This document shows, piece by piece, positions 387 through 16,600 of a stretch of 24,587 nucleotides of DNA. The notes below the pieces were generated by a model. The model was not told the origin of the DNA. It ran no database searches and saw only the letters and a program-made list of their open reading frames with translations. Origin of the DNA: Nostoc sp. GT001. Lineage in GTDB: Bacteria > Cyanobacteriota > Cyanobacteriia > Cyanobacteriales > Nostocaceae. The stretch lies in NCBI RefSeq assembly GCF_030382115.1, contig NZ_JAUDRJ010000001.1, positions 78,875 to 103,461 of the forward strand. The letters are read 5' to 3'. Within the stretch, counting starts at the first letter, position 1. The number at the start of each line of letters is the position of its first letter. A program made the translations under genes and the position numbers.

Positions 387-1144
387 ATGGACACCCCACC
401 CCGTAAGCGTAAAAAGGCCACCTCTGCCACATCACTCGATCCAGGATTGCTCAACTCAGACATCGCCCCTTCAGAAAATCCAGCTTCAGCAATCATTGAT
501 GTTCCTGCTGTTGAAGTACCTGAATTGACTGAGCAGGAGATTCGCGATCGCCTACTCCTGGAGAGGAAAGTAGAGAGGACATTTTTTGAGGCAGGGAAGG
601 CATTAACGGAATTGCGCGATCGCAGACTGTACCGTTCGACCCACAAAACCTTTGAGGAATATTGCAGGGACAGGTTTAGTTATACTCACCGCCATGTGAA
701 TTATTTAATAGCTGGTTCTTTGATAGTTGAGAACATAATAATGGGAACTAATAGTTCCCAAAATGAAAGCCAGGATGAAATGGGAACTAATAGTTCCCAA
801 ATTTTGCCCACATCAGAAGTACAAGTTCGACCTCTGGCAAAGCTAGAACCTCAACAACAGCCAGAAGCATGGCAGCAGGCGGTGGAACAAGCGGGGGTAA
901 AGTGCTAAGTGGTAGAATCGTCAAAGATGTTGTGCAGCGCATCATGGAGCGAACCCAAGTACCCAATACCTACCAGATTGGCGAAGTCTGTCAAATCCTT
1001 ACCAAAGACAACCCCGAACTCAGAGGTAAGGGTGGCTGCTGGGGGATAGTCGCAAGAGTGAATGATTTTAGCTGCACTGTAAAATTTTTCTACTTAAAAC
1101 TCAAAAAATTTTTCTGCACCACTAAGTATCAATTGCTTCTATGA
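387..1144 (+). pseudogene. ParB/KorB-like plasmid-type DNA-binding protein, frameshifted and 3' truncated (copy 1)
   Basis: This is a second copy of the gene at 16833-17837. The N-terminal part (387-908) reads PPRKRKK, then the conserved block VERTFFEAGKALTELRDRRLYRSTHKTFEEYCRDRF, then LPTSEVQVRPL. The frame is lost in a run of five G at 893-897; one more G would restore the reading frame of the intact copy. The next frame (from about 898) continues GRIVKDVVQRIMERTQVPNTYQ up to about base 1080. There homology stops abruptly and unrelated AT-rich DNA supplies the last 20 residues. The roughly 83 C-terminal residues of the intact copy are missing. The start has a good ribosome site (AGAGGTGG, 6 nt upstream of ATG 387), also seen before copy 2. 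Either a real pseudogene, or a gene whose G-run was miscounted but which is still truncated. Confidence 0.8.
743..798 (+). repeat. Two perfect 17-bp palindromes inside copy 1
   Basis: GGGAACTAATAGTTCCC occurs at 743-759 and again at 782-798, in the same reading frame and 39 bp apart. They encode two MGTNSSQ units. The intact paralogue has different repeats at the equivalent place. Confidence 0.85.
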
Positions 1145-1591
1145 ACCAGAATTTATGTTCTGATTAATTAGTAAAGAACAGCGGTAGACCATTGCTGCAC
1201 GACTTCCGACACCGAGCTTAGTAAATATCCGACGCAGGTGGGCAGAAACTGTCCATTCACTAATTTTTAGTTGTTTGGCAATATGTTTGTTTTGCTTCCC
1301 TAATGCAACGAGAATTGCTATTTCCAGTTCTCTTTCAGTTAAGATATGTGTTGGATCTAGTTCTTTTTCAGTTGATGTTAGTTCACTTTTTAAAATGGCA
1401 TATGATTGTTGATTAAGCTCAAATCGACCTATTTGCGTAAACTGTGGGGATTCTACTTCATTTTCTATGTGGTTGTTGACAATAGTAATTGAGTAATACT
1501 TGTTGTCTAAATAAAGGGCACCAACAATATCAATGGGGATAGCAAAGTCTAGTTTTTGAAGAAGAGAATTTGCCAAGGCGGGTTCTATCAT
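1139..1591 (-). CDS. Small LuxR-type HTH transcriptional regulator
   Basis: 150 residues. Residues about 83-138 form a LuxR/GerE-type helix-turn-helix: LTERELEIAILVALGKQNKHIAKQLKI, then SEWTVSAHLRRIFTKLGV as recognition helix and dimerisation helix. The roughly 80-residue N-terminal part (DIVGALYLDNKYYSITIV) has no receiver-type phospho-acceptor pattern that I can see, so this is probably not a two-component response regulator. ATG at 1591 follows an AAGG about 5 nt upstream. Stand-alone LuxR proteins of this size are frequent in filamentous cyanobacteria. It is transcribed in the same direction as the ten-gene cluster ending at 2126, but 534 bp of non-coding DNA separate them, so it probably has its own promoter. 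It could regulate that cluster; nothing in the sequence proves it. Confidence 0.8.
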   Translation of the reverse strand: MIEPALANSLLQKLDFAIPIDIVGALYLDNKYYSITIVNNHIENEVESPQFTQIGRFELNQQSYAILKSELTSTEKELDPTHILTERELEIAILVALGKQNKHIAKQLKISEWTVSAHLRRIFTKLGVGSRAAMVYRCSLLINQNINSGS

Positions 1592-2125: not shown

Positions 2126-2896
2126 TTAGTGTAATACAGTATGATTAGGTTTGACTAAATATGGAGTTTTTCTGCCTTCAATTAGCCGCAGTAGGTTTTT
2201 ACCTAGTACCAGCGCTTCTTGCCAAGAGGACAAACCCAAAAGGTGGATTTTATGGAGTTCTAGAGCAGGGTGCAACCAGGGACCATCAGAGCCAAATAAA
2301 ATCTTATGCACTCCTCCTCGCTGGACTGCTTGCACGAGGTAATCAAACCGCCGTACTCCTGATGTATCAGTATAGACATTAGGAAAACGAGCTATCTGAT
2401 CGATGACGCGCAAATGGGCACGCCAATCATCCGCAAAACTGCCCAAGTGAGGGATGATGAAGTTGACATCAGGATATTCACTTGCCAGGAGTTCAACGAC
2501 ATCTGTTTCGCTTACAGGGTCATAAAGAATGGGCAGGCGAAAAGTACGGGCAGCCTCGCATAGTTCGCGAGTTGCTGGTCCGTCCATACGGTGGGCTTTG
2601 ATCCCACAAAATCCCCATTGAGTAACGGCTTGTTGAACTAATCGGTAAATGCGATCGCGATCGCGTTGAGGATGGATAGTTGCAAAGCAGAGAAAGCGAC
2701 CTGGATAGCGGGCAGCAATGCGAGCCGTATTGGCGTTAGCCTGTTGGTAGTTGCTGTGGAAAGGCGAGAAAATCACAGTTTTCTCAATTCCAGCAGCTTT
2801 TGCCCGTTTTAAATAGATTTCGATCGGTGCGTTAGTATTCCAAGGCCCTATGAGTAGGTCGCCTTTTCCTGCATGACAGTGGCAATCAATAATCAT
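2126..2896 (-). CDS. Amidohydrolase family metal-dependent hydrolase (TIM barrel)
   Basis: 256 residues with the hallmarks of the amidohydrolase (Amidohydro_2-like) fold: the strand-1 metal motif DCHCH (H6 and H8), GIKAHRMDG near residues 98-106, a conserved histidine in FIIPHLGSF (H150), and the strand-8 aspartate in ILFGSDGPW (D204). Family members hydrolyse or decarboxylate diverse amides, esters and carboxylates; the substrate here cannot be read from sequence. There is no signal peptide, so it is cytosolic. The start ATG at 2896 overlaps the stop of the upstream M20 peptidase (ATGA), a typical translational coupling that suggests the two enzymes act together. It is the last gene of the collinear minus-strand cluster. 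Family call firm, substrate unknown. Confidence 0.88.
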   Translation of the reverse strand: MIIDCHCHAGKGDLLIGPWNTNAPIEIYLKRAKAAGIEKTVIFSPFHSNYQQANANTARIAARYPGRFLCFATIHPQRDRDRIYRLVQQAVTQWGFCGIKAHRMDGPATRELCEAARTFRLPILYDPVSETDVVELLASEYPDVNFIIPHLGSFADDWRAHLRVIDQIARFPNVYTDTSGVRRFDYLVQAVQRGGVHKILFGSDGPWLHPALELHKIHLLGLSSWQEALVLGKNLLRLIEGRKTPYLVKPNHTVLH

Positions 2897-4290
2897 CTTC
2901 CGTACTCCGCCAAAAATTGGATCACTGTTTCAATGCCTTGAAAAAAGTTAGACAGGCTAATCTTTTCATTGGGGGCATGGATGTTGTCGTCAGGTAATCC
3001 AAAGCCAAGGAGAACAATCGGTACACCCAGCCGCCGATATAGTTGCTCAACCAAGGGAATTGTGCCACCACTACGAGTAAATACAGGGGTAACTCCCCAA
3101 GTTTGCTTTATTGCTTTAATGACTGCTGTCATCACCGGATGGTTTTTGGGCAGAAGCACAGAACGCGCACCGCCTGTAATTTTGAGACGACTACGAATAG
3201 CAGGATGGGTAAGAGTTTGAATGTGGCGCTGGAGGAGTTGGGCAACATCTGCGGGATCTTGATCCGGGACTAGCCGAATACTCAATCGTGCCAGACTGCG
3301 ATTAGGAATGACTGCTTTACTTCCCAGCCCAGTATACCCGCCAGCTAACCCGTTAATAGTTAGAGCAGGGCGGATAGTCATACGCTCGTATAAACTGTAG
3401 CCTGGTTCGCCCCAACCTGCGGGCAAGTCGAGGTCATCTAATATTTGTTGGTCGCGTTTGCAACAGCAGCGAATTGTTTGGCGTTCCGTGGGTTCTAATT
3501 TTCTCACTTGCTGATAGAAACCGGGAATGGCGACTCGACCTTTGCGGTCATGGAGTCCAGAAATAATGTCACTTAACCCTTGCAAGGGGTTGAGGACAGC
3601 ACCACCGTAACGTCCAGAATGGAGATCATGGCGCGGTCCAGTGACTTCTAATTCACAGGAGAGATTACCCCGCAAACCGTAGATAATAGATGGGCGATCG
3701 CGTCCTAACATTTCTGTATCCGATACTAACACCGCATCCGCTTTTAATCGAGAAGTTTCGCGCTTGAGAAAAGCTGAAAGGTTGGGGCTGCTAATTTCTT
3801 CTTCCCCTTCTAACCAAACCTTGATATTTAAGGGCAACTTGCCTGTAGTTCTCAAGTAACTTTCAATGGCTTTCAGGTGAATAAAAAATTGTCCCTTATC
3901 ATCACTAGCCCCTCGACCATAAAGATTTTCGCCGATAATAGTTGCTTGGAAAGGCGGAGTTTGCCAAGCCCCAAGGGGGTCAACAGGTTGGACATCGTAG
4001 TGACCGTAAAGTAGAAGTGTGGGTTTTCCAGGCGCGTGTAACCAGTCCCCATATACGCTAGGGATACTGCCCTTAATTCCTGGTAAAATCTGCACATTGT
4101 GCAATCCCAGTTCAGCTAAGTGCCGTGCTAACCATTGAGCGCAAGCTTGCAAATCTCGGCGGTGCTTCGGCTGGGCGGAGATAGTGGGGAAGGCAATTAG
4201 TTGTGTTATTTGGGAGAGCCAGCGCGATCGCTGCTGTGTTTGTTGGCTGTAATCAAGAGGTGCAAAATTAGTTGAAAAAGACGAAAGCAT
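2893..4290 (-). CDS. M20-family metallopeptidase (dipeptidase-like)
   Basis: 465 residues, normal for M20 dipeptidases and related amidohydrolases. Two-zinc site motifs are in order: LLLYGHYDVQP (H97, D99), YGRGASDDKGQ (D130), the catalytic and ligand glutamates in EGEEEISS (from E161), VSDTEM (D191), and the C-terminal histidine in LPDDNIHAPNE. The dimerisation (lid) domain fits residues about 205-345. Family members cleave dipeptides or N-acyl amino acids. No signal peptide, so probably cytosolic. It begins 9 bp after the preceding gene and overlaps the amidohydrolase gene by 4 bp, so all three are likely co-transcribed. Its presence next to a zincin and tagged proteins suggests that peptide fragments are recycled or trimmed here, which is inference. 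Confidence 0.92.
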   Translation of the reverse strand: MLSSFSTNFAPLDYSQQTQQRSRWLSQITQLIAFPTISAQPKHRRDLQACAQWLARHLAELGLHNVQILPGIKGSIPSVYGDWLHAPGKPTLLLYGHYDVQPVDPLGAWQTPPFQATIIGENLYGRGASDDKGQFFIHLKAIESYLRTTGKLPLNIKVWLEGEEEISSPNLSAFLKRETSRLKADAVLVSDTEMLGRDRPSIIYGLRGNLSCELEVTGPRHDLHSGRYGGAVLNPLQGLSDIISGLHDRKGRVAIPGFYQQVRKLEPTERQTIRCCCKRDQQILDDLDLPAGWGEPGYSLYERMTIRPALTINGLAGGYTGLGSKAVIPNRSLARLSIRLVPDQDPADVAQLLQRHIQTLTHPAIRSRLKITGGARSVLLPKNHPVMTAVIKAIKQTWGVTPVFTRSGGTIPLVEQLYRRLGVPIVLLGFGLPDDNIHAPNEKISLSNFFQGIETVIQFLAEYGR

Positions 4291-4299
4291 TTTGCCTAC

Positions 4300-4722
4300 T
4301 TATCGAATCAAATCTAGTCCGATCAAATGCCGTGCTGCCAGAATATGAACGATAGCGTTTTTCAAATGTTGTGTCGCTTGCGTCCTATTTGCCTCATTTG
4401 TCTTAGCTTGCGCGGTCGCGACTTTAGCAGACAATATCTTCCTTTGCACTGCGGTTAATCGAGGTGAGGGGGAGATACGATTTCTTATTCCTGTTGCCGC
4501 CTCATCGAGATACATATTTGCTGTGACTAATGCATTGTGAAACTCTCTAGTGTTGCTTTGGTGCAAATACTTGATTGCGCTCCCAATCTGTTGACGAGCT
4601 TGCTGAAGCCTCCTCGGCCAAGGATTGGTGGGAGTAGCCATCGCGTCAGCATAAGTATAATATTCCCGCTTTGGCTTTGAAGGAAAGGGTGCTTCAAACA
4701 GCCACTGGCTTTTTGTCTTCAT
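4300..4722 (-). CDS. Small helical protein with N-terminal LFEAPF tag
   Basis: 140 residues, not recognised as a named family. It starts MKTKSQWLFEAPFPSKPKRE; the WLFEAPF hexapeptide core is shared with the next upstream gene (4793-5227), and LFEAP also starts the protein at 10131-11198. The remainder (about residues 35-140) is predicted to be all alpha-helical and basic, with IKYLHQSNTREFHNALVTAN resembling the YLGGNSPAAKQALAIAR region of the 144-residue neighbour, so the two are probably distant paralogues. ATG at 4722 has GAAGGA about 8 nt upstream. No signal peptide, membrane segment or catalytic motif is visible. Position between tagged protein genes and the M20 gene suggests a substrate or adaptor in the same pathway. 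Confidence 0.75.
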   Translation of the reverse strand: MKTKSQWLFEAPFPSKPKREYYTYADAMATPTNPWPRRLQQARQQIGSAIKYLHQSNTREFHNALVTANMYLDEAATGIRNRISPSPRLTAVQRKILSAKVATAQAKTNEANRTQATQHLKNAIVHILAARHLIGLDLIR

Positions 4723-4792
4723 ATTTGAAATCCTTCACACTGATATAGTAAATAACCTAAACGACTATGGTTATAAAATAGACGCAATTGCT

Positions 4793-5227
4793 TTAATTCC
4801 AGACCTTAGCACCCTTTTTCGTCCTTAAAACTCTAATAGTTGCACTCAGCGCCACCGATGCTGTTTTTAACTCTGCTGCTGCCATATTGGCGTTATTAGC
4901 TGCCAAATAGCTCTGTGCTCGTTGAATTGCTACATGGGCAGCACCCAGGAATTGCTGCGATCTCGGCTCAGATGTTATTTGCTTAACCATCGAGCCCGCA
5001 AGTGTAACACGCTGTCTTGCGATGGCTAATGCTTGCTTGGCAGCTGGTGAATTACCACCTAAATATTGCCGCGCTCTTTTAACCTCTGTCACAGCTTGAT
5101 GTAGAGCCTGCCAAAACCATCCTGTCCCTGCCTCATACTCCATCTCAGGATGGGAGTAGGGGTTAATATAATGAGTTGTTGCCGAGGTGAATGGTGCCTC
5201 AAACAACCAAGGGCTTTGCTTGTTCAC
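4793..5227 (-). CDS. Small helical protein with LFEAPF tag and YINPYSHPEMEYE motif
   Basis: 144 residues. The start codon is GTG at 5225-5227 with a strong AAGGAG 7 nt upstream, so the first residues read (M)NKQSPWLFEAPF. A second motif follows directly, YINPYSHPEMEYE, which matches the YSHPYSNPEFE repeat unit of the protein at 10131-11198. After an acidic/glycine turn comes GWFWQALHQAVTEVKRARQYL and three to four predicted basic helices to the C terminus. Both halves of the tag (LFEAPF and Y-x-NPYS-x-PE) are therefore present in one short protein. This is the best evidence that the tag is a common address or processing signal in this cluster. Enzymatic function is not indicated. Confidence 0.78.
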   Translation of the reverse strand: MNKQSPWLFEAPFTSATTHYINPYSHPEMEYEAGTGWFWQALHQAVTEVKRARQYLGGNSPAAKQALAIARQRVTLAGSMVKQITSEPRSQQFLGAAHVAIQRAQSYLAANNANMAAAELKTASVALSATIRVLRTKKGAKVWN

Positions 5228-5325
5228 GGATTGCTCCTTAATATTCTATCAAAGTTGTCAGTCACTAGTAGCCTGCCTCTGTTTGGAGACTAATAACTTG
5301 TAGCTCAATGACAATTGCCCTCACC

Positions 5326-6486
5326 CTACTCCAGCAAATTGGGAGCAGGCATCAAGCCATTGGATCTAGCAAAGACTGGATCTCTTCTTGAACCACTCGG
5401 CGGCGCACCTGGGACGTAAACATTTCTTGGTGGCGGAGTCGGGCGGCTGATCCGCATTCCTTCCTCGCTGGAAATCCATTCTTCCGAAGCTTCCGCAATG
5501 CGATATAGTAATGCCTCAAAATCGGTGCGGTTCTTCTTGAGGACGAAAGGTTCAGCCAACCAGCGCAGAATTTCTCGTCCGGTGACAGCCATGCGATTCA
5601 TGGTGCTGGCGTGGACTGATTCGCGGAAGTATTGCCAAAGCACCAGTTCAATTAGTTCCCAAGCGTTATCAGCACCAAATTGGGCGCGGACATCGGGGGC
5701 TTCTAGGACTTTAAAGGCTTCGGCTAATGCCTGAGAAGTTTCTACTCTCAGGACATTGATATAGCCATAGGAAGAGTTTTTCAAGTTGTTGCGTAAATCC
5801 AATCCTGACCGCCGGACGATCGCAATTGAACCAAATGTCGGATCGGTGGCATTTTGCCGGATTACCTCGCTAATCCGTTTGTCGCGCCAGTATTTTGCCG
5901 TCTCACTAATAAAGTGAGTCAGCAAGCCGTGAAACTGGGGATTGGGACGGGCATTGGGGCCTGGGTTGACTTTGGTGTAACCGAAAACTCGACGGTAAGC
6001 TTGAAAGCGATCGCGTTGTCGGTAGCGGAGAATATTCCGCCTGTCAAAACGATAGAGTCCGTAAGCGCCCTCACCGTTAGAAATTCGCAAGGTTCCCGCC
6101 CGGAATAATTCTTGCAACTTGTCCATGACGCGGAACACGCCCAGAAATTCGTGAATGCAGATATAGTAGAGGTCGGCGGATGCAAGGATGCGATCGCTCT
6201 TGACGGTATCATCGTAGTCAACTACCCCTCTAGAAATTTGGGTATCACCTAAATTATTCGGTGCATCATTTCCCAATCCAATTAAGTCGGCTAGTCCCCC
6301 GTCAGCAGGCGTTCCTTTACCGTTTTGGTTGGCATAGTATTCATTGAGCTGATCGTCAATCTTCCGATTGAGAATTTCTGCTAATTGTGGATTGGCAATT
6401 AATTCGGGACCCAAATTTTTAATTGCTTCTTCTAGCAATTTAGCCGCTTGATCATTGCGATTGTCGTAGTCATTAGTTTTTACCAT
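5326..6486 (-). CDS. Unrecognised 386-residue protein of the tagged-protein cluster
   Basis: I do not recognise this family. The N-terminal 50 residues are helical and acidic (AAKLLEEAIKNLGPELI), followed by a glycine/asparagine-rich linker (about 53-82). A large mixed region with many arginines and tyrosines follows (YRFDRRNILRYRQRDRFQAYRRVFGY), then helical segments around ESVHASTMNRMAVTGREILRWLAEPF. The last 45 residues are a proline-rich, probably disordered tail (RPTPPPRNVYVPGAPP). No signal peptide, transmembrane helix, Walker motif or metal motif is visible. ATG at 6486 is preceded by AGGGAG at about 8 nt. It lies 52 bp after the 473-residue protein, which also looks like a structural or binding protein; the two may be partners. 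Confidence 0.75.
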   Translation of the reverse strand: MVKTNDYDNRNDQAAKLLEEAIKNLGPELIANPQLAEILNRKIDDQLNEYYANQNGKGTPADGGLADLIGLGNDAPNNLGDTQISRGVVDYDDTVKSDRILASADLYYICIHEFLGVFRVMDKLQELFRAGTLRISNGEGAYGLYRFDRRNILRYRQRDRFQAYRRVFGYTKVNPGPNARPNPQFHGLLTHFISETAKYWRDKRISEVIRQNATDPTFGSIAIVRRSGLDLRNNLKNSSYGYINVLRVETSQALAEAFKVLEAPDVRAQFGADNAWELIELVLWQYFRESVHASTMNRMAVTGREILRWLAEPFVLKKNRTDFEALLYRIAEASEEWISSEEGMRISRPTPPPRNVYVPGAPPSGSRRDPVFARSNGLMPAPNLLE

Positions 6487-6538
6487 TGGAAACTCCCTAT
6501 TCTCTTGGAATCAAAAATTGCGATTTGGCGATCGCTGA

Positions 6539-7960
6539 TCAGGCCGCTTGATCGGCTAAAGCATTCAGTTGACTTAAAATATTATCCAAAGCCCAAGTTA
6601 CTCGTTCGTTGGAGAGAATTTGTTTCAGAGTGGAAGAACCAGACGGATTTGTGGGAATAAATTTGATATGGGCGACAACGGGTGCGATCGTCCAAAAGAG
6701 GCGATCGGCTTGATCGGTGACAAAATCGATGCCGTAGGTACTATCTAAAGCACTGGGGGCTTCTATATTTGCATATTTATCTAACCAGTCGATCAAGTCG
6801 CTGACGGTAAGCTTCGGCAACCAACTAGCTATGTAGGCTGGATCGAGAATAGGTAGACTCTGTGATGAGAAACTTCCGCTACTTTGGCTTTGAACTTGGT
6901 TTGACCGCAACATTAACGATGTGTTGCTCTCACTAGACGAACTACGGCGAGAACTACTTGGGCTTTGAACTTGGTTTTGCGGCAAAATGGGGGGTATGTC
7001 GATCGCACTAAACAAACTAGCGCGGGAACGACGCTCGTTTTCACTCAAGCCTACCGATTCCAAGGAGTTGCTAAAATCTAAGTTTGCTTGAGCAACTATA
7101 GGTAACAAAACTCTCGCTCGATCAACTCTAATACTGAGAGAGTTCCCAAGTTCTGATCGTTCCCTCTTGTAATACGTTGTCCAAGCCTGACTGAGATTTG
7201 TTATGTAAGACTTCAGCAACCTATATTTAGTAGTCTGCTCTTCATCTTCGATAGTTACTCCCAAGTTGGGATTATTCAGAGATGCTTTTCTGCCAAACTC
7301 CGTTGTATATTCATCAAGGGAGTAGAGATAGAATTTAACTAAATTTGCTCGCGGTTCGTCAGCCCGACGAAATTCTTCCACCAGAAACAGAATTCGTCCC
7401 CTGATTAATTCTCTTAAAGCTTCAACACTCTCTTTATCGACTTTAGGAGAAAAGTATTGAATTTCTGCTAATACCTTCAAGGCATCTGCCATATTAGTAT
7501 TAACTTGACGATAGAGAATTGCTTGCTCTGTGGAAACTTCGGTTAATAATTCATTACTGCCTAAATTATTGGTATTGTTAGCAATAACAATTATAGCCGC
7601 TTGACCATAGCCATTTTGAGGAAAAGCTGCATTGAGAGCATTGACAAAATTATTTCCGCCTTGTCCTGGAGACTTGCCTAGAGCCCGATTGATGGCGCGA
7701 TCAACAACTCGCTCCCACTGATTAGAAGTATTAGTGCTACTAGATTGTATCGAACCGCTATCATAGGCAGTTTGTTGATTCCCGGCATAGCGTTTGAAAG
7801 CACCTAAAAAATCACTAATTAACAAATTTCCTCGATTTCCTGAGTCATTTCCAGGTGCATAAAATGGGCTAATGCCATAAAGTTGCGCCATCAATCCAGT
7901 CCGCAACGCTTTAGACTGTTGAGCGTATATTTTACTTAAAGATAGATCATCTATCGCCAT
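6539..7960 (-). CDS. Unrecognised 473-residue protein with serine-rich linker
   Basis: No family recognised. The N-terminal 75 residues are followed by a Ser/Thr/Asn-rich patch (SGSIQSSSTNTSNQ), then a mostly helical region (about 80-320) rich in charged residues. A serine-rich linker at about 328-368 contains the motif NQVQS twice and runs such as SSSRRSSSSES. A C-terminal helical domain of about 100 residues follows (LPILDPAYIASWLPKLTVSDLIDWL). The two-domain-plus-linker architecture suggests a scaffold or adaptor rather than an enzyme. ATG at 7960 has AGGAAGGA about 12 nt upstream, slightly far but usable. The gap to the upstream 228-residue gene is 98 bp. Confidence 0.75.
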   Translation of the reverse strand: MAIDDLSLSKIYAQQSKALRTGLMAQLYGISPFYAPGNDSGNRGNLLISDFLGAFKRYAGNQQTAYDSGSIQSSSTNTSNQWERVVDRAINRALGKSPGQGGNNFVNALNAAFPQNGYGQAAIIVIANNTNNLGSNELLTEVSTEQAILYRQVNTNMADALKVLAEIQYFSPKVDKESVEALRELIRGRILFLVEEFRRADEPRANLVKFYLYSLDEYTTEFGRKASLNNPNLGVTIEDEEQTTKYRLLKSYITNLSQAWTTYYKRERSELGNSLSIRVDRARVLLPIVAQANLDFSNSLESVGLSENERRSRASLFSAIDIPPILPQNQVQSPSSSRRSSSSESNTSLMLRSNQVQSQSSGSFSSQSLPILDPAYIASWLPKLTVSDLIDWLDKYANIEAPSALDSTYGIDFVTDQADRLFWTIAPVVAHIKFIPTNPSGSSTLKQILSNERVTWALDNILSQLNALADQAA

Positions 7961-8058
7961 AAATCTGCAATCCTTCCTGTTAGATAGGTGAAAATAATTA
8001 GATGTAAAAACATAGATAAATCTGTGGAGACAATCAAATTATTCTGAGAAATAATGTT

Positions 8059-8745
8059 TTAAGAAAGTCTTCCAAGCGTCTCTGTATCCGCCAATCTACT
8101 GTAGATAAGTTCCAATTCGTTATGAAGGCAAAAGAAATTTGCAAGAGTTTTCTGTGTACCTGGTTCTTCAGGGTTTGCAGGTTCTAATTTGCCACCAGAT
8201 TGTCTCGCATCTTCAACAAATTCATTAATAGCCGTTCCCCAAGCACTGGTTAAATTATTAATTTGTTCCTCACTTAAATTGGGAATACGGTTTTCTAGTA
8301 AAGCTTGTGTATTTTGCTTAACAACGATGTCTGTGTCTTGCAAAAAACCAAGAATTACACTATTAGAACATAATTCTTCTATTTCCCCTGTCGAATCTAG
8401 GGGTTTTTCTGCAACCACTTTGAAAGAATATTTTAGTTCTGTCAGCAAATTAAGAAAGTCTTGTTCTAACTTTTCCTTTTCTTCTTTATTTTTAGGATTA
8501 GATGAAAGCTTGGTAGCATCTACTTTAAATAGCTCTTCTCCCAAACGTTTGAGTATTTTCAAATAAAACTCTAATTCCTCAATTTTTTGGCGCAATTCGT
8601 CCGTATTATTTGGGTTTGTGTCAATGTTTAAAACATTGAGGCTGTGTTTGAGAACCTCATTTTCATCTTTTGTTGTATTGTGCTTTGAAAAAACCTTTTT
8701 CAAGTCTTCATAATTGTTTTTATCTTTTGCCGTTAATTCAGCCAT
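8059..8745 (-). CDS. Charged helical (coiled-coil-like) protein of unknown function
   Basis: 228 residues, rich in Lys, Glu, Leu and Asn and probably all helical. Heptad-like stretches occur at about 45-75 (TDELRQKIEELEFYLKILKRLGEELF) and 85-110 (NKEEKEKLEQDFLNLLTELKYSF). No known domain recognised and no signal peptide. Its ribosome site is an excellent AGGAGGT at about 7 nt, embedded in the last codons of the zincin gene. With only 4 bp between the genes, translation is probably coupled and the two products may interact. Lower GC and different composition from the zincin gene are noticeable, but such helical proteins are generally AT-rich. Confidence 0.75.
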   Translation of the reverse strand: MAELTAKDKNNYEDLKKVFSKHNTTKDENEVLKHSLNVLNIDTNPNNTDELRQKIEELEFYLKILKRLGEELFKVDATKLSSNPKNKEEKEKLEQDFLNLLTELKYSFKVVAEKPLDSTGEIEELCSNSVILGFLQDTDIVVKQNTQALLENRIPNLSEEQINNLTSAWGTAINEFVEDARQSGGKLEPANPEEPGTQKTLANFFCLHNELELIYSRLADTETLGRLS

Positions 8746-8749
8746 AACT

Positions 8750-10102
8750 CTACCTCCTGCCTAAAATGCGGTAAAAATTATCAGTAATTATTTGTGGACT
8801 AGCTAACTGTTTATCCAACGCAAATCTCGCTGCACTAATGGTAAATCTCAGGGGAATTGTGCCTACATCTTGCCCTGCGGCTAAACGCTGTCCGGCTAAC
8901 TTAATCATCTCCATTTCTGGGATACCAAACTTAACCACTTGGGCTAAGGATTTATTGGCAAACTGGCGATAGGGCTGGAATACCATTGTATCTACGACCA
9001 TTTCCGCTGCCGGATAGAAGCTTTTCATAAAAGCCGGGGGAATATCTTGTGGGGTGAGGCGGGGATAAAGGCGTTGCCAAACCCTGGTTAAATCGCCTGC
9101 CATTTTGTCAAATCCCAACCGCCGCAGCAGAATCAAGTTAATTAAAACCCGTAGATAAGGGGTAGGATGTACAGAAAAAGCACTAAACCGGACTGTACTC
9201 TTGTGCGATCGCCCCACCACATCCATCAGCGATTCTACTGCCGCAGGTCCCCCTAAAACTAAGGCAAACATATCTGCCATCGTTTCTTTATGCCAGTTCG
9301 CCCAAACCCTGGCAATTTCTGGGGAAAATCTCCCTTCAGTAGTCAGCCGTTGGTAAATACGGGCGGGAATTTCTTCCCATAATCCCAAATCGGCTTGCAG
9401 GTTATGAGATACTTCATGCAGCACACTGGACAATGCCCAAACATTATCTAAGCGATGTTGCGGCAGCACAATCAATGGAAAGAGGTTGGGGTTATGGCGT
9501 AGCCGTCGCATCGGAACTCCCCGCCGGAATGTCATCGGACTGAAGCCACTATCGGCGTAGCTAAAAGGCAGCAGATTGGGAGTGGGTTGAGCTGTTCCCA
9601 AACCCACATAAAGGTCTTCGTAACAGTTTGCAGCAATTCTATCTATGGAACGCAACCGTTCACCAAAGCTAGACAAGCGTTGAACGAATAGATCGAAATA
9701 AAAGTCCCAAATCCCTTCGACATAAAGAACGCGATCGCCCACAACTTGCTTGCGTTCTAACAGCACCTGCAACCGTTCTGTGGTAGGTTCCTGGCGAGCA
9801 GCATTAGCAGCAGCTTCCACCCAACGCGCCCTTTCCACTACTTTGCTACGGAATTTGTCAATAAAGCGGTTAACTGCTTCAATATGTGCCTCACTGGGAG
9901 ACACTGGCCCTGTGCCAAATTCATCCTTGGTAAAGGGGCGGAGGGATTTGGCATGGCGCATCAGGTTGATGGCTTGGATATTCAGCCAGTTGTCCAAAAG
10001 GCGCTGTTCACTTGGAGTTGCCGACCCCTTCATTCCACTCTTCTCAACAGAGGTGGCTCCTTCTGGGGGTTGCTTGACAGTGGAGACAGGTGGGGTTGTC
10101 AT
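8750..10102 (-). CDS. Predicted zincin metallopeptidase (HEVSH ... ETMAD)
   Basis: 450 residues when started at ATG 10102, which has AGAGGAAGG about 8 nt upstream; a longer open frame to 10222 would overlap the upstream gene by 92 bp and lacks such a site. Residues 226-236 read SVLHEVSHNLQ, a canonical HExxH zinc motif (H229, E230, H233). About 40 residues on, HKETMADMFAL supplies the glutamate (E273) and aspartate of a gluzincin-type ExxxD third ligand. The helix spacing is consistent with a zincin catalytic domain. The N-terminal 60 residues are polar and probably disordered (TTPPVSTVKQPPEGATS); no signal peptide is seen. In context it is the prime candidate to cleave the tagged neighbours, which is inference. 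I cannot assign it to a named peptidase family. Confidence 0.8.
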   Translation of the reverse strand: MTTPPVSTVKQPPEGATSVEKSGMKGSATPSEQRLLDNWLNIQAINLMRHAKSLRPFTKDEFGTGPVSPSEAHIEAVNRFIDKFRSKVVERARWVEAAANAARQEPTTERLQVLLERKQVVGDRVLYVEGIWDFYFDLFVQRLSSFGERLRSIDRIAANCYEDLYVGLGTAQPTPNLLPFSYADSGFSPMTFRRGVPMRRLRHNPNLFPLIVLPQHRLDNVWALSSVLHEVSHNLQADLGLWEEIPARIYQRLTTEGRFSPEIARVWANWHKETMADMFALVLGGPAAVESLMDVVGRSHKSTVRFSAFSVHPTPYLRVLINLILLRRLGFDKMAGDLTRVWQRLYPRLTPQDIPPAFMKSFYPAAEMVVDTMVFQPYRQFANKSLAQVVKFGIPEMEMIKLAGQRLAAGQDVGTIPLRFTISAARFALDKQLASPQIITDNFYRILGRR

Positions 10103-10130
10103 AGTTAGAGCCTTCCTCTGCAAGAGAATT

Positions 10131-11198
10131 TCAGCGAGCGATGGAACCAGCGCAAGTAGGGCATTGACCAGCCCCAGTTCTGCGGGGGCTTGGGGGTGCG
10201 GTGCGCTGGCGTAAAACAGCATTGCGGACGATCGCCTTTTGCACGCGTTGGGGATTGCTTAATACGCGATTGGTGGCATTTGCCATTGCTTTGAGTGCCA
10301 TTGCACTGTTGATTGGCTGACCGGAACGAGCTACAGCTTTGAGAGTGGCAGCTGTTTGGCGTTGAATTGTGGGGATGGTTCGCAGCAGTTGTTTTCCAGC
10401 TGGCCCTTGTTGGCGTAATAAGCGTGTTAGTCGTCCAGTAGCCTGGGCTAGGACTGGCATCACGGGTCTTAATGCCCGCCGTCCGCCCGTAATGGAGATA
10501 CTGATGGGTAGAGAAGCGGCGATCGCTGCTTCTGCTTCTGCTTCGGTGGTCGCTTCTGCTGCCTGGGCAGCCAGAAACTCGGTCAGTGCAGCCTCATGGG
10601 CAGTTTCTGTATTGGCAACTTCTGCTTCTGCTTCATTAGTGCCAAAAAATTCGGCTTCCATTTGCACAGCTTCCATTTCGCCTTCTTTAATTAAGGCACC
10701 AGCGAGTTTGGCTGCAAGCGGACCAGCAACGGCTCCTACACCTGGTATCATCCCGACCAAAGTGCCTGCTAGCTTAGGAGCTAATTTCTTGGCAAGGGGA
10801 GCTGCAACTTTCCATGCTTTCGTAGCAAATTTCTTGATTCCACCCCAAAAATATTCTCCCTCATCCTCAAATTCTGGGTTGGAATAGGGATGGCTGTAAT
10901 GGGTTGCCTCATGGCTAGTTTCCCACTCATTTTCAAATTCTGGGTTGGAATAGGGATGGCTATAGTGGGATTCTGGATTATTTTCCCACTCATCCTCAAA
11001 TTCTGGGTTGGAATAAGGATGGCTATAGTGGGATTCTGGATTATTTTCCCACTCATCCTCAAATTCTGGGTTGGAATAGGGATGGCTGTAATTGGTTGCC
11101 TCGTAGCTAGTTTCCCACTCATTTTCAAATTCTGGGTTGGAATAAGGATGGCTGTAATTGGTTGCCTCGTGGGCAGATGGTGCTTCAAAAAGTGTCAT
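10131..11198 (-). CDS. Repeat-bearing tagged protein: LFEAP leader, five YSHPYSNPEFE repeats, amphipathic segment, basic helical domain
   Basis: 355 residues in four blocks. Residues 1-6 are MTLFEA(P), the short tag. Residues about 14-112 carry five tandem copies of YSHPYSNPEFE(N/D)E with alternating linkers, strongly acidic. Residues about 113-175 are lysine-, alanine- and glycine-rich and amphipathic (WGGIKKFATKAWKVAAPL, then GMIPGVGAVAGPL), like membrane-active peptides. Residues about 180-340 form an acidic-to-basic helical domain (AEFFGTNEAEAEV, HEAALTEFLAAQAA, GGRRALRPVMPVLAQ, QGPAGKQLLRTIPTIQR), ending with CPTC near the C terminus. Proteins of this general composition occur in several bacterial phyla as hypothetical proteins; I know of no established function. 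It is a paralogue of the gene just upstream. The start ATG has GGAG about 12 nt upstream. Confidence 0.82.
   Translation of the reverse strand: MTLFEAPSAHEATNYSHPYSNPEFENEWETSYEATNYSHPYSNPEFEDEWENNPESHYSHPYSNPEFEDEWENNPESHYSHPYSNPEFENEWETSHEATHYSHPYSNPEFEDEGEYFWGGIKKFATKAWKVAAPLAKKLAPKLAGTLVGMIPGVGAVAGPLAAKLAGALIKEGEMEAVQMEAEFFGTNEAEAEVANTETAHEAALTEFLAAQAAEATTEAEAEAAIAASLPISISITGGRRALRPVMPVLAQATGRLTRLLRQQGPAGKQLLRTIPTIQRQTAATLKAVARSGQPINSAMALKAMANATNRVLSNPQRVQKAIVRNAVLRQRTAPPSPRRTGAGQCPTCAGSIAR
10867..11190 (-). repeat. Five in-frame tandem repeats of 63-66 bp
   Basis: The plus-strand core TCAAATTCTGGGTTGGAATA starts at 10867, 10933, 10996, 11059 and 11125, giving periods of 66, 63, 63 and 66 bp. 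Units are nearly identical and always in frame, each encoding YSHPYSNPEFE plus a linker of 10-11 residues. Recent expansion or contraction by recombination is likely. Confidence 0.92.
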
Positions 11199-11256
11199 GG
11201 TTCAAGTTCTCCATGTGAATTGAGTAAAACACTTATCACTTGTCTTCAGAAGAAAG

Positions 11257-12120
11257 CTAAGAAAAGTCCCTCTGAAAACTTCTCCGATAGCCCAATGGGT
11301 TCCTGGGGGCAGCAGCGACGGTTGAAATCCGAATCAGGGCATTGCGGGTAATAGATTGGTAAACTAATTGGGAATTGCCTAAAACCCGTTTTGTCTGGGC
11401 AGCCACAACGCAGCCAACTAACGCTGATGTCATCGGACAACCCCAACGCCTAGCAGCTAGGAGGCTGGCAACCGTCCGGCGGAGGATGGTAGGTACAAGC
11501 CGGAGCAAGCGGCGACTATCACGGCTGTGGCGGTGCAGAAAGCGGACGAGGCGGGCAGTGGCTACTAACAGCATGGGCAAGACAGGACGGAGCAGTTGTC
11601 GCCCATCCATCACCCTGAAAGCGATCGGGAGCGCCGTACCAATTAAGGCAGCCGCTTCACTTTCGCTTTCTGTATGACTGGCTTCTGCTGCTAGCACTTC
11701 TGTTAAGGCAGCCTCGTGAGCGATTCCTGTATTCGCCACTTCTACGTCTGCCGCTTGCGTGCCAAAAAATTCTGCTTCCTTACGCCTGCTATCGCGATCG
11801 CCTTTTTGGAGCAAGGGGTACAGGAGTTGAGCAGTCAAGGGATTGAAGTTCCTCTTTGCTCCTGGCACAGCATTCACAATCATGTTGGCAGTTATAGGAG
11901 CCAAATATTGGGCAAGGGGTGCAATTCGACTAGCTACTTTACTAATGCTTTGCAAAGTCTGCTTAAGGTTAAATTCCCTTTCATCCTTGCGTTTGGACTT
12001 AAAGGCAGAAGCTGTTTTGGGATTTTCCTTGAAATAATCTAATTCCAACTCAGAGTAGGAATTTGCCTCGAACTCCATTGCAGTCTTACCTCTGCCATTG
12101 CCATTAGCATAAATATTCAT
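11257..12120 (-). CDS. Paralogue of the repeat-bearing tagged protein, without tandem repeats
   Basis: 287 residues from ATG 12120, which has GGGAG about 9 nt upstream (a TTG at 12141 is a weaker alternative). The N terminus is short and acidic (MEFEANSYSELELDYFKE), standing where the neighbour has its YSHPYSNPEFE repeats. The rest aligns along its length with the downstream protein: KVASRIAPLAQYLAPI, AEFFGTQAADVEVANT, HEAALTEVLAAEAS, LPIAFRVMDGRQLLRPVLPML, SRRLLRLVPTILRRTVASL, KRVLGNSQLVYQSITRNALIR. The C-terminal domain is strongly basic. It is the first gene of the minus-strand cluster, so the 12142-12775 region should hold the main promoter. Tandem duplication followed by divergence is the simplest history. 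Confidence 0.8.
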   Translation of the reverse strand: MNIYANGNGRGKTAMEFEANSYSELELDYFKENPKTASAFKSKRKDEREFNLKQTLQSISKVASRIAPLAQYLAPITANMIVNAVPGAKRNFNPLTAQLLYPLLQKGDRDSRRKEAEFFGTQAADVEVANTGIAHEAALTEVLAAEASHTESESEAAALIGTALPIAFRVMDGRQLLRPVLPMLLVATARLVRFLHRHSRDSRRLLRLVPTILRRTVASLLAARRWGCPMTSALVGCVVAAQTKRVLGNSQLVYQSITRNALIRISTVAAAPRNPLGYRRSFQRDFS

Positions 12121-12381: not shown

Positions 12382-12500
12382 TATCGAATTGAGTTCAAGA
12401 ATGAGAAATTCATTATATTTCCTTTATTGTCTTTAACCTTGGCTCTGAGGACGTTCCTAGTAGTTCGCCAACCCAAAATTGCTGGGTGGAGGTCGGCAGA

Positions 12501-12544
12501 GGAGCAGAGGAGCAGGGGAGCAGGGGAGCAGGGGAGCAGAGGAG
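12501..12544. repeat. 8-bp GGAGCAGR tandem array
   Basis: Five and a half copies of GGAGCAGG/GGAGCAGA in tandem. Arrays of this kind are scattered in intergenic DNA of Nostoc-type genomes and vary in copy number. Confidence 0.85.
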
Positions 12545-12775
12545 AGGCTTATACAAGTTCTTTCCCCTCTGCCTCTCTGCTAACCACCTTTGCATTGTTT
12601 CCTTGGCAGACTACTAGTCCAAAAAATGCCCCGTCTACCCATTGTCTCAAAGAGGCTAAAGCGTCAGCAACATAGTTGCAGCCGCCCAATATAACTGATA
12701 CGAGGGCATTTTTTTCGAGGGTTATTCTTAAGAACAGCAAACAACTTTATAACTTGTCTTTCTTGGGGAGGAAAG

Positions 12776-13648
12776 ATGATGATTGCTTCATCAGCTAACT
12801 TTTCTGTCAAATTTAGCCAGCAGCGCTATGCTTGTGTTTTAGATCCCACCTTAGCTTTATCTCGGTATGGCCTCCTCTTAGTCAAGCAGCTAGGAACAGT
12901 GATGGATATTTGGTTAGGGCGTGAGTTCTGGAATATTATTAACAATACTCGCTTTTACTTAGACCACCCGGAGTTGTTGCTCCTGCCAATGGCTACTTGT
13001 TCTAGCCCTCTCAACGGACAGCCATATATTCTACAGGACATGCTTGAAGCATTGCAGCAGTGGGAACAAATGGATAAACAAACTACTTTGACAGATTTAA
13101 AACTCTTCCGCATCGGAGAGCGACCTGAAGAGTCTTTTCTGCCAAGGGAAATGGGAACAGAAATCATCTGGTACTATGAATCCCTAGCACACTCTCTGGA
13201 AGCTCAAGCGTCAAAGGGATTTGATAGCAGTGAAGTGCTAACCTCAGCTTTTCGGGATACAGTTGCCCTAGCTGCGGCTATAGGTTCTCCATTTATCTTG
13301 ACGCATCAATTTCCTACCGCTACAGCGGAAACTCTTCCTCCAGGGATCTGTATGGCTCTCACTAGTTGGCAAATCCCCTGCCAAGCTGTTACCCTCCAAG
13401 ACGAAATGGCTACTCTTGAGCGTAACTATTTGCGTCAAATTTTCGTCCAAGCTGGTCTTGCCAAGTTCTTGTGGGCTGGACTTCATCTGACAGTACTTCA
13501 TCTGCTAGCACCCTCAGCTTCCCAACCAGCGAGTTTACCTGTACACCATCAGGAATATCAATCTCCTAACAATAAAGATTTTGCAAAATTTCCCCACGCA
13601 GAAACTAATTTGTGGAAAGGAAGCCAAGGCTTTTGGTATCAACTGTGA
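12776..13648 (+). CDS. Unrecognised 290-residue protein
   Basis: I do not recognise the family. The protein begins MMIASSANFSVKFSQQRYACVLDPTLALSRYGLLLVKQL and has a mostly alpha/beta composition, with aromatic and acidic clusters (FWNIINNTRFYLDHPELLLLP) and a long helical segment (DTVALAAAIGSPFILTHQF). A serine/proline-rich tail covers the last 45 residues. Some features recall small nuclease-like folds but no catalytic pattern is convincing. The ribosome site GGGGAGG lies 4 nt before ATG 12776 and 7 nt before ATG 12779, so translation may start at the second methionine. It stands alone on the plus strand, convergent with the SAP-like gene. Confidence 0.7.
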   Translation: MMIASSANFSVKFSQQRYACVLDPTLALSRYGLLLVKQLGTVMDIWLGREFWNIINNTRFYLDHPELLLLPMATCSSPLNGQPYILQDMLEALQQWEQMDKQTTLTDLKLFRIGERPEESFLPREMGTEIIWYYESLAHSLEAQASKGFDSSEVLTSAFRDTVALAAAIGSPFILTHQFPTATAETLPPGICMALTSWQIPCQAVTLQDEMATLERNYLRQIFVQAGLAKFLWAGLHLTVLHLLAPSASQPASLPVHHQEYQSPNNKDFAKFPHAETNLWKGSQGFWYQL

Positions 13649-13702: not shown

Positions 13703-14515
13703 TCATGCTGTTACTAACTCACGGCTTGCTGCAACTGGCTCATACACCCGTAACCGTTGCCATTTATCAGGGACCAGCATTACAAACGGTCGGTCTAGCA
13801 ATTCTTCGCAGTCAACCGCTTCTGCATGGGGTAGTGTGTCCACTATCGACAGCCACCCCACAGCATCCATTGCCGAGTCACACGGCATTTGCTGCCGTTC
13901 CCCAGTACGCATTACCCACCAGCCGCCGTCAGTACAGCCAACCTCGCCCAGTTTCACGTCGTTGTGGCAAATCCCATCGTCGAGGATTTCAAAGCCGTAT
14001 TTTTCGCATTCGTTGAAAATCTGCGCCATGACTTCGTTACCAGTAGTGCATGGTGTTGCAAGTTGTTCCTGCACAGGTAATGAACCGTCTTTGTAGTGAG
14101 TGCAGATGAAGCGATCGCAACGCATTAAAGTGTTGGCACGAAATACTTCTTTATCGTTGACCATGACTACCCAGCGTTGCGTTAAGTGGTTGTCGTCATG
14201 GCTGATGCTGGCTATCAGTTTGTCATCAGCGTAATATTCGTGATGGTCAAACGAGATTTCGACTATTGTGAGGGGTTCGGGAGCTACGGCTTGGGCTTGG
14301 GTTGCGATGAAGTGGTCGAGTTCGCCTTGGGCAAGGGCTTGGTTGTCCGTGACTTTATGAAGCTTGGTGGATTGGTGAGCGATGATTGCGTTTACCCAGG
14401 TGTCAGCTGCTCTTTTGTCCCCGGTGGGTGTTATGCCACGTTCGGCGGCGATTCTTTTGAGTCGGGGTAGGTTATAGTGGCAAAGGGCTTGCTGTGTGTA
14501 TTTCGGATATGTCAT
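13703..14515 (-). CDS. SAP-like-domain protein of accessory/plasmid type
   Basis: 270 residues. The first 50 (LPRLKRIAAERGITPTGDKRAADTWVNAIIAHQ) fit a SAP/Rho-N-like helix-extended-helix nucleic-acid-binding motif. The central part (FDHHEYYADDKLIASISHDDNHLTQRWVVMVNDKEVFR) is a predicted beta-rich domain of a type often found in hypothetical proteins of Nostoc plasmids and genomic islands. The C-terminal part contains several cysteines (CEKYGFEILDDGICHNDVKLGEVGC). ATG at 14515 follows AAGGAAA at about 8 nt. It is divergent from the RHH regulator at 14699, sharing a 183-bp spacer with operator-like repeats. Role unknown; probably part of the mobile-element gene pool. Confidence 0.7.
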   Translation of the reverse strand: MTYPKYTQQALCHYNLPRLKRIAAERGITPTGDKRAADTWVNAIIAHQSTKLHKVTDNQALAQGELDHFIATQAQAVAPEPLTIVEISFDHHEYYADDKLIASISHDDNHLTQRWVVMVNDKEVFRANTLMRCDRFICTHYKDGSLPVQEQLATPCTTGNEVMAQIFNECEKYGFEILDDGICHNDVKLGEVGCTDGGWWVMRTGERQQMPCDSAMDAVGWLSIVDTLPHAEAVDCEELLDRPFVMLVPDKWQRLRVYEPVAASRELVTA

Positions 14516-15134: not shown

Positions 15135-16600
15135 TGTATGCCAATACCTCTGCCAATTTACGAGGGTTCAACGCCAGTGGAAACGGGATGAATACGTCCT
15201 AAAGAAGTAAGCTTGGCAAAAATCTGGGTTAATAAAATAGGCTCAGGGATTTCGGGAAGCATTTTTAACATTTCACGAACATATCGAAAACCACGATGGT
15301 AAGCCTTAAGGTCAATAATGCCAGAACCGGGATTGAGTTGCTGGAAATCAGCGAGAAGATGGTGGGATAAATTGACCATAAAAAATGCTAAATTAGAAGC
15401 ATTAGTCACGGCAGTTTGGCTCAGGTTCATAAAATCTTCCAATCCCCAAAACTGCTTGGCATCCCTAAAATTAAACTCGATTTGGAAACGGAGTTTGTAA
15501 TAGTCGATAATTTTTTCAAATGACAGAGTTAGGTCGCTAGAAAAAATAATTACATGGCTGCAAGCATTAGTTTTAAGATTGGTTTTGACCAAAATCACTA
15601 CATTGAGAGCTTGGGCAAATTCTTTGTGAATAAGAGTGGCTTGATAAATATCAGTTTGAATATCATCCTCAATAGCACTTTTACATAAGTATTTGTCAGG
15701 TATATTACGATAGTCTAGCTTATCACCGTATTTACGACGAGAGCGCTTACTGGAGTCAGGATTTTCATAAGGGAAGTATAATGCTGAATCATGGCGCAAT
15801 TTGGAAATTATCTGCAAGTTGACAAGACGTGCCATCTGCAAAGCATTGTTGTTACCAAAATGACCATCTACTACCAAGTAGGTGAGGGAAATAGAGTTAG
15901 CTAATAACTTGAATAGTGAACCAATCATTTTCTGAATTAGTATTAATTCAGATGTTAATATCACTTCCTTTTTATTTTTGTTTTTACTTCCTTTTGGTCG
16001 TCCACGCCCACGCTTTTCTTTTTTGTTTGGTTTTTCGATTGTCGAGGTACTTTTTGTTTGAGTATCTTTCTTTATTACCTGTTCTATCTGAATCGGAAAC
16101 GAGTGCCTCTGTTCAACACTCACTAATGATAATACAAAGAAAGATAATCCTGATATCGGTTTATTGGCTAGGCTAGAAAAGAATCTATCTAATCCATAAG
16201 TCTTTTTACCCGATTTACTGACTACAACTTCATCTCCTGCAAGCAAATATACCTCATTCGCACGGAACAAATGCTTGCGGAAAAATAGCCAAAACAATGT
16301 AGCCCAAGGTATTACTGTATGAAAAAACCGCAACATCGTCCGATAACTACCACCAATGCCTGCCCAACGGGAAATTCCCAACATCGTGACTCGTCCGCTC
16401 ATCGCTAACATAGCCAGGATTATCTGGTTCAATTGCCGCATCGTCGTAGCGTTTATCTGCGGTAGCAAGCATTGTAGCAGTGATAAGATATCGGACATGG
16501 GCTGATTGTAGTTTTTGAGTTGTCGTTGTGAGAGACAATAACTCTACTACATCGGCCCTCTCTCCTCATCCTCTTATTTTGGCTAAGGTATTGGTATGCA
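15135..16600 (-). mobile_element. IS4-like insertion sequence, about 1.47 kb, apparently complete
   Basis: Imperfect terminal inverted repeats bound the transposase gene. The left end, TGTATGCCAATACCTCTGCC (from 15135), pairs with the complement of the right end, TGCATACCAATACCTTAGCC (to 16600); about 16 of 20 bases match. The left repeat overlaps the transposase stop codon. I could not find a target-site duplication, so the boundaries are accurate to a few bases only. The element sits between the RHH gene and the ParB-like gene and probably split a formerly compact module. Confidence 0.75.
15158..16498 (-). CDS. IS4-like DDE transposase
   Basis: 446 residues, full length for the family. The DDE catalytic residues are visible: D89 in YLLAGDEVVV, D211 in YLVVDGHFGNN, and E341 in the YREK signature (Y334-x2-R337-x3-E341-x6-K348, within YYKLRFQIEFNFRDAK). 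The basic stretch KRGRGRPKGSKNKNKK (about 162-177) resembles an AT-hook and may aid DNA binding. The reading frame is intact, so the enzyme could be active. It catalyses cut-and-paste transposition of its own element by binding the terminal repeats. Exact IS group not assigned. Confidence 0.9.
   Translation of the reverse strand: MSDILSLLQCLLPQINATTMRQLNQIILAMLAMSGRVTMLGISRWAGIGGSYRTMLRFFHTVIPWATLFWLFFRKHLFRANEVYLLAGDEVVVSKSGKKTYGLDRFFSSLANKPISGLSFFVLSLVSVEQRHSFPIQIEQVIKKDTQTKSTSTIEKPNKKEKRGRGRPKGSKNKNKKEVILTSELILIQKMIGSLFKLLANSISLTYLVVDGHFGNNNALQMARLVNLQIISKLRHDSALYFPYENPDSSKRSRRKYGDKLDYRNIPDKYLCKSAIEDDIQTDIYQATLIHKEFAQALNVVILVKTNLKTNACSHVIIFSSDLTLSFEKIIDYYKLRFQIEFNFRDAKQFWGLEDFMNLSQTAVTNASNLAFFMVNLSHHLLADFQQLNPGSGIIDLKAYHRGFRYVREMLKMLPEIPEPILLTQIFAKLTSLGRIHPVSTGVEPS

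Follow-up and report, generated by a model that had tools for sequence, protein, structure and literature searches.

Do ten closely spaced genes on one strand of a Nostoc sp. GT001 contig form one system, and if so, what might that system do? The stretch analysed, called the window below, has 24,587 nucleotides and is G000:C1:78875-103461, part of a 361,862-bp contig in a six-contig, 7.9-Mb cyanobacterial genome (G000 is this own genome, G-numbers denote genomes, and L-numbers denote loci in our catalogue of module copies). Judged by sequence comparison, the ten-gene cluster is a copy of a module that occurs in many bacteria and seems not to have been described before. Its four core genes encode bipolar proteins (acidic at the start and basic at the end), a zincin (a predicted zinc peptidase), and two proteins called g5 and g6. 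Tentatively, and with less than even confidence, we propose a self-contained precursor-processing module in which the zincin would cut inert precursors and so set free membrane-active peptides as well as tagged effectors, probably for use in conflict between cells.

The ten-gene cluster and its core

The cluster, two sites within it and two further module genes are as follows.

11257..12120, minus strand: g1, bipolar-family protein, paralogue of g2 (tagN family, 38% identity)
10131..11198, minus strand: g2, bipolar protein with an LFEAP start, five YSHPYSNPEFEDEWE-type acidic repeats, a cationic amphipathic segment and a basic C-terminal part
10779..10850, minus strand: acid-to-cation junction and amphipathic segment of g2, 24 residues from F117 (moment z 2.6, 6/24 cationic, placed by alignment)
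8750..10102, minus strand: g3, the zincin, a predicted gluzincin-like peptidase (metal-site motif)
9404..9418, minus strand: HEVSH metal site of the zincin (sequence motif, alignment)
8059..8745, minus strand: g4, accessory gene (present in 6/88 loci)
6539..7960, minus strand: g5, core gene without known family (58/63 loci with room)
5326..6486, minus strand: g6, most conserved core gene without known family (62/63 loci with room)
4793..5227, minus strand: g7, WLFEAPF-tagged variable gene in the cargo position (tag, no Pfam match)
4300..4722, minus strand: g8, WLFEAPF-tagged variable gene (tag as in g7)
2893..4290, minus strand: g9, M20 dipeptidase-family peptidase, accessory (Pfam and NCBIfam, PRK08201-type dipeptidase)
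2126..2896, minus strand: g10, Amidohydro_2 hydrolase, accessory (Pfam, 4-bp overlap with g9)
1139..1591, minus strand: LuxR/GerE-type small regulator of the module (PF00196, 64.3 bits)
12776..13648, plus strand: divergent module gene of family c5, 290 aa (family in 41/88 loci)

All ten open reading frames (ORFs) were confirmed between 12120 and 2126, read from the minus strand, and their spacing is that of the original prediction, with gaps of 58, 28, 4, 98, 52, 98, 70, and 9 bp besides a single 4-bp overlap between the M20 and amidohydrolase genes; g1 and g2, which had been called paralogues, are indeed so. The collinearity stood, but the extent proposed (2126..12120) did not, with module genes at 1139-1591 and 12776-13648 lying outside it. 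As for the start of the zincin, the closest homologue begins at the position matching ATG 10102, an alternative ORF start at 10222 would overlap the neighbouring gene, and the alignments with its nearest relatives in the database span 92% of the long ORF. No Pfam or NCBIfam match over cut-off was obtained for g1 to g8, so that the M20 peptidase (PF01546; NF006053, 514.9 bits against a cut-off of 441) and the amidohydrolase (PF04909), both identified correctly beforehand, were alone recognised, and the c5 protein had neither a Pfam match nor a PDB sequence match. PADLOC, applied to g1 to g9 and to one DUF4438 protein, matched no system and gave two weak matches, both to g8 (13-15 bits). The earlier remark that no described system has this composition thus agrees with Pfam, NCBIfam, PADLOC, and the open-licence literature, in which no named system was matched, though a further paper could exist.

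Species-representative genomes were scanned once and yielded 143 zincin relatives; the best 80 of the 143, seven further loci, and the window make up a catalogue of 88 loci, which served both to build family profiles and to search with them (40 bits for family counts, gene order, and sub-types; 60 bits for the junction and moment statistics). One contig was entered twice (L012 and L044), L026, L028, L030, and L037 are contigs of metagenome-assembled genomes (MAGs) and may be misbinned, and gene calls in high-GC (guanine plus cytosine) DNA are unreliable, spurious antisense g5b ORFs being ignored. The zincin was found in 87/88 loci (L015 is the single locus without a zincin call), g6 in 77, the g5 families in 37 and 47 (47 being inflated by some antisense artefacts), and the four bipolar families in 15, 25, 45, and 8, while a LuxR-type gene family occurred in 57, DUF4438 in 32, a trypsin-like family in 20, the amidohydrolase in 11, the M20 peptidase in 8, and both of these in 6 loci plus a Paraburkholderia plasmid. 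At loci with sufficient flank, bipolar genes lay directly upstream of the zincin in 68/71, g5 downstream of it in 58/63, g6 in 62/63, and the complete bipolar-zincin-g5-g6 order was present in 47/53. The core genes are therefore neighbours in related and distant genomes, as the prediction had supposed, and the zincin adjoining bipolar proteins is their constant element. A bipolar gene was missing in L014, L067, and L088, g5 in L014, L048, L060, L073, and L092, and g6 in L014; some of these absences are probably artefacts of distance or gene calling.

Isolates with the module include Nostoc, Scytonema, Jidongwangia, Corallococcus, Roseateles, Mesorhizobium, Methylobacterium, and Burkholderia, and in Acidobacteria, Verrucomicrobia, and Chloroflexi it came from MAGs only. 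The distribution is patchy, with a zincin match in 8/386 genomes of the phylum sample, among them G101 and G170, in which the match is weak and the rest of the module is absent. A mobilizable Paraburkholderia plasmid (L118) carries the order bipolar-bipolar-zincin-g5-g6-M20-amidohydrolase, with a LuxR gene behind it on the opposite strand. A viral origin was considered and rejected: the zincin has no relative in viral contigs and g6 none in phages.

Bipolar proteins, zincin, and tagged genes

Four profile groups of bipolar proteins have a common plan, in which an acidic, often repetitive N-terminal half is followed by a cationic, often Gly/Ala-rich amphipathic stretch and then by a basic C-terminal part. 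The charge split (first half net negative, last third net positive) was found in 124/136 bipolar proteins against 60/418 other module proteins, and the median net charge of the bipolar proteins was -26 in the first half and +21.5 in the last third. F[FLWI] lay at most 4 residues from the computed acid/base boundary in 94/133 proteins (17/25, 26/48, 45/52, and 6/8 in the four groups), compared with 5.6% of positions in these proteins, and 24 acid-free residues followed the junction in 115/133, including g2. Set against their own shuffles, these post-junction 24-mers had a high helical hydrophobic moment (median z 2.6; >1.5 in 102/115, <0 in 3). In the controls z exceeded 1.5 in 56/300 random 24-mers of the zincin and g6 (median 0.5), 39/300 of g5 (0.1), 92/300 from any part of the bipolar proteins (0.7), and 22/300 acid-free cationic 24-mers of other module proteins (0.0). 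Junction and amphipathic pattern were seen in all four bipolar groups. Several bipolar proteins have a CPTC or CTCG motif near the end, and family c26 (L072 16866-17555, L055 11815-12387) has CGC..C motifs near the N-terminus.

The earlier recognition of a zincin agrees with the sequence: it contains HEVSH and WHKETMAD, and H230, E231, H234, E274, and D278 are invariant in 59/59 aligned sequences, which includes the gluzincin feature of HExxH with a downstream glutamate. The same feature is found in M48/M13-type gluzincins (which we take to be the families of BepA and Zmp1), and the four VIA rows starting at residue 142 are of this kind. Of 7,999 database proteins scored as candidates, 2,317 were zincin relatives, none of the 120 relatives among the matches listed had a Pfam domain, and the window zincin itself was without a Pfam match. 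TIGR04267 (mod_HExxH), presumably tied to peptide-processing systems with a zincin, gave no match at the zincin locus in 4/4 genomes, and there was no NCBIfam match above noise. Two distant relatives have other surroundings. One, L119 8734-10155 on a Bradyrhizobium plasmid (27% identity), stands among CHAT, patatin, and phospholipase D-like genes, a neighbourhood that fits a conflict setting as one weak case, and the other, L014 9344-10624 in a cyanobacterium, stands beside SPF-type-motif proteins, one of them with a trypsin domain.

For g5 and g6 no enzyme family was recognised (Pfam and NCBIfam among the scans), and searches by sequence of the zincin, g6, g5, and c5 against solved structures gave no match of value. 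In some g5 relatives a stretch at the N-terminus resembles transthyretin, with a score under the Pfam cut-off. The predicted model of g6 is all-helical (predicted local distance difference test score, pLDDT, 76.6) and had no useful fold match, the absence of a match being no proof of a new fold.

The tags named in the original prediction are real, and g7 and g8, which begin with LFEAPF in common, are 29% identical; the treatment of all tagged proteins as one class did not hold, the upstream bipolar genes being constant and the tagged genes after g6 variable. At N-type loci (named, like the C and P types, by bipolar family) [LM]FE.P occurred in the first 30 residues of 11/12 post-g6 genes against 1/178 other non-bipolar genes, the lone exception (L009 19039-19473) lying further downstream and being itself WLFETPF-tagged, and the motif was also present on 10/25 N-type bipolar proteins. 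In the C and P types several post-g6 genes open, by eye, with acidic-aromatic stretches like those of the local bipolar proteins. That the tag is a genome-wide sorting signal is unsupported for this clade. In the own genome WLFEAP is confined to the two window genes; across 386 genomes the only carriers are G000 and G191, with two copies each within the module, and G128 and G043, with one each and no zincin match. With the W dropped and T allowed as well (LFE[AT]P), the own genome had 10 matches, of which 3 fell within the module, against 31 for a reversed-pattern control. No paper was found for the tag strings in the open-licence literature, and a protein search with g7 returned g7 alone.

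Of the 79 listed post-g6 proteins, 27 were scanned, picked by eye and partly for tags and suggestive ends, and effector-type domains over the Pfam cut-off, for peptidoglycan (PG) hydrolysis, PG binding or nuclease activity, were present in 7/27, which is not a rate:

L012: M15 peptidase with PG binding
L020, L025: PG binding
L035: PG binding with OmpA
L041: GIY-YIG
L042: DUF2272, plus a CHAP match below cut-off
L086: VanY, 3.4 kb behind g6

Matches below the cut-off were beta-lactamase2-like (L027) and M35 (L080), and a DUF6399 match in L094 is not effector-like.

The prediction had further joined the zincin, the M20 peptidase, and the amidohydrolase as three metallohydrolases of one cluster. 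This trio holds in one sub-type but does not define the module, because the M20 and amidohydrolase genes, which are accessory, occur in a minority of N and C loci and in 0/36 P loci (counted where room was at least 4 kb). Behind g6, the N and C types have variable tagged genes, or M20 and/or amidohydrolase genes, or both sorts; with room, M20 was present in 7/26 N/C-type loci (8 if L030, which the distance filter missed, is added), the amidohydrolase in 10/26, and both in 6. The 36 P-type loci with room carry alongside the core a c5 gene (34), a LuxR gene (34), DUF4438 (28), and a trypsin-like gene (18). The structure of DUF4438 has been solved for TM1086 (3dcl, 3n99; an example of the gene is L013 4223-5224), and in the open-licence literature no paper was found under the family name, while those found for TM1086/3DCL/PF14505 were mostly unrelated by title; the family now gains a setting as a companion of the P-type module.

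Apart from the own genome, G191 alone among 386 has close orthologues of the window M20 peptidase (86%) and amidohydrolase (85%). This close relative also has the module (locus L009), with the M20 and amidohydrolase genes about 9 kb past the zincin, so that the two enzymes appear to travel with the module, both genomes with close orthologues carrying it. Weaker matches in other phylum classes reached at most 37% identity over the full length and at most 41% in short pieces, short M20 pieces being matched in G060 too, and g9 is the only match in the own genome. The motifs GHYDVQP, SDDKGQ, EGEEEI, and IHAPNE in g9, and DCHCHAG and GSDGP in g10, which we take to be their metal-site motifs, look intact.

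Proposed function and rival readings

How might such a module work? In the scheme we propose, the acidic half of a bipolar protein would keep the cationic helix inert inside the producing cell, g5 and g6 would serve as adaptors or a scaffold that delivers tagged proteins to the zincin, and the zincin would cut near the acidic-FF/FL junction and near the tag. The freed membrane-active peptides and effectors may then jointly attack the envelope, either that of a competing cell or, as a suicidal response, that of the producer itself. The module would be turned on by a LuxR-type regulator, and the M20 peptidase and amidohydrolase of one sub-type could destroy leftover peptides. We infer the silencing, the junction cleavage, the gathering of substrates by g5 and g6, the envelope attack, and the clean-up from the arrangement of genes and residues described above.

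Several observations weigh against this scheme. Eighteen of the 133 bipolar proteins, window g1 among them, are without the junction segment, and the junction statistics rest on related proteins, which makes p-values too small and overstates independence. No antimicrobial peptide was matched when the cationic segments were compared by sequence with solved chains, where the label "cecropin-like" that we had presumed for them likewise found no counterpart. Among the ten genes no exporter was recognised (Pfam and NCBIfam, without signal-peptide prediction), no immunity gene came up, no search having been aimed at immunity genes, and L014 has a zincin relative without a bipolar gene, g5, or g6. 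The effector-type domains come from selected proteins, and 20/27 of the scanned post-g6 proteins, including g7 and g8, had none over the Pfam cut-off.

The nearest described logic is that of the zincin with diverging precursor in peptide-processing systems and of the metallopeptidase-linked toxins. Zincin-like metallopeptidases with fast-diverging precursors (FxSxx-COOH, RxD, and acidic types, attributed to Haft and Basu 2011) are described in PMC7159879, and the likeness lies in a zincin-like gene adjoining a diverging precursor, a proposed release of peptide toxins or signals, and a conflict setting. These systems have a small precursor with a C-terminal peptide and ties to vWA/MoxR/VMAP or FtsH, whereas the module has large bipolar precursors and constant g5/g6; no vWA, MoxR, or VMAP gene was found among the ten window genes (Pfam, NCBIfam), and TIGR04267 does not match the module zincin. 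Polymorphic toxins (PMC3482391) combine a constant N-terminal sequence with variable effector-like proteins, a metallopeptidase, and peptidase, nuclease, and peptidoglycan-targeting domains; in the module the tag stands on 11/12 post-g6 proteins of differing lengths at N-type loci and effector domains were found in 7/27 picked proteins, but the PVC-type metallopeptidase (DUF4157) domain of these toxins was not found (Pfam). The zincin thus fits the models of neither known kind (TIGR04267, DUF4157). The open-licence literature on polymorphic toxins and operons yielded related systems only and no description of the module, although another paper could exist, and the core families, for which Pfam, NCBIfam, and PADLOC gave nothing that passed a cut-off or rose above noise, belong to no described system found.

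The main rival to peptide release holds that the bipolar proteins serve in delivery or assembly: paired through their acidic and basic parts, they would be the building blocks of a coat, pore, or condensate, with the tagged proteins as its cargo and the zincin as a factor that trims or matures the particle. We regard it as unlikely, though deserving of weight: loci often have two and sometimes three bipolar genes with a variable number of repeats, the conserved g5 and g6 belong to no recognised enzyme family, and the tag motif is common to 10/25 bipolar proteins and the N-clade variable genes, while the intact peptidase site points beyond scaffolding and g6 is without a useful fold match, which is no proof. 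Another reading appears very improbable: that an extracellular contractile injection system (eCIS) encoded elsewhere takes up the products of the variable tagged genes as its effectors, with the zincin as a DUF4157-like loading factor. Toxins with DUF4157 associated with eCIS (PMC11297309) do have a metallopeptidase beside effectors with polar N-terminal signals, a contractile-sheath match was found in 17/21 module genomes searched, and eCIS_core (DUF4157) proteins over cut-off were found in 3/4. A sheath match cannot separate eCIS from prophage, however, and is common anyway (72/386 in the phylum sample and, by our count of the rows listed, 24/43 in the own family); no tail gene was recognised in the module, the eCIS_core matches lie elsewhere in 4/4 genomes, the zincin has no Pfam match and thus no DUF4157/eCIS_core, and the sheath of G000 is on another contig. 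A contractile injection system is apparently not required: no sheath match was found in 4/21 module genomes, one of which, G011, consists of a single contig with a completeness rating of 100% and is also without eCIS_core over cut-off.

Turnover of a storage or stress polymer, with the bipolar proteins degraded stepwise by the zincin, M20 peptidase, and amidohydrolase, would suit the compact bipolar-bipolar-zincin-g5-g6-M20-amidohydrolase order in L045 and L118 (L050 has an extra gene before g5) and the confinement of close M20/amidohydrolase orthologues to module genomes of the 386-genome sample. We hold it to be improbable: the two enzymes are missing in 36/36 P-type loci with room, and the lytic tagged genes and amphipathic segments would be left unexplained. 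That unrelated same-strand neighbours met by chance on a plasmid-like contig is scarcely credible; transposase-like genes do lie near the cluster on the 361,862-bp contig (by eye), but the order is conserved over many genera, and since the core order recurs in 47/53 loci with room, chance is refuted for the core. Singly, g4, g7, and g8 could be passengers.

If precursor processing with peptide release is the true function, the termini of many new cationic peptides could be predicted from the acidic-FF junction, and effectors missed by domain searches from the tag, in soil- and plant-associated bacteria and in cyanobacteria. The bipolar, zincin, g5, g6, and c5 families, which have no Pfam match, gain a common context and a testable function. 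More boldly, bipolar proteins silenced by their acidic half and cut at the acidic-FF junction by a dedicated gluzincin-like peptidase might, together with g5 and g6, form a membrane-breaching assembly that transports or sets free lytic cargo with short tags, and hence a new class of effector-release or delivery machine over several phyla, unlike known secretion, phage-tail, and toxin families; we regard this, too, as unlikely though deserving of weight.

Surroundings of the cluster

A promoter scan was no better than shuffles (17 against 21.9), and a terminator scan gave 19 against 14.0. The divergent intergenic region upstream of the module (12490-12560) contains short tandem CTCCCCTG-type repeats (minus strand). 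Beyond the c5 gene, 13703-14515 and L016 7825-8628 are paralogues on one contig (59% identity), and 15158-16498 is by eye a transposase-like ORF of 446 aa, whose length and first 60 residues are identical to those of an ORF on another contig of the genome (L115 5858-7240). Two copies of one apparent gene family lie, by eye, at 387-1144 and 16833-17837; the first is apparently decayed into two overlapping ORFs (387-908 and 869-1144), and the second has relatives at L017 4330-6048. Two adjoining genes at 17944-22799 resemble AAA-type NTPases, one with WD40-like repeats and the other with a LuxR-like N-terminal part, and at 23266-24074 a transposase-like gene is broken into two ORFs (all by eye).

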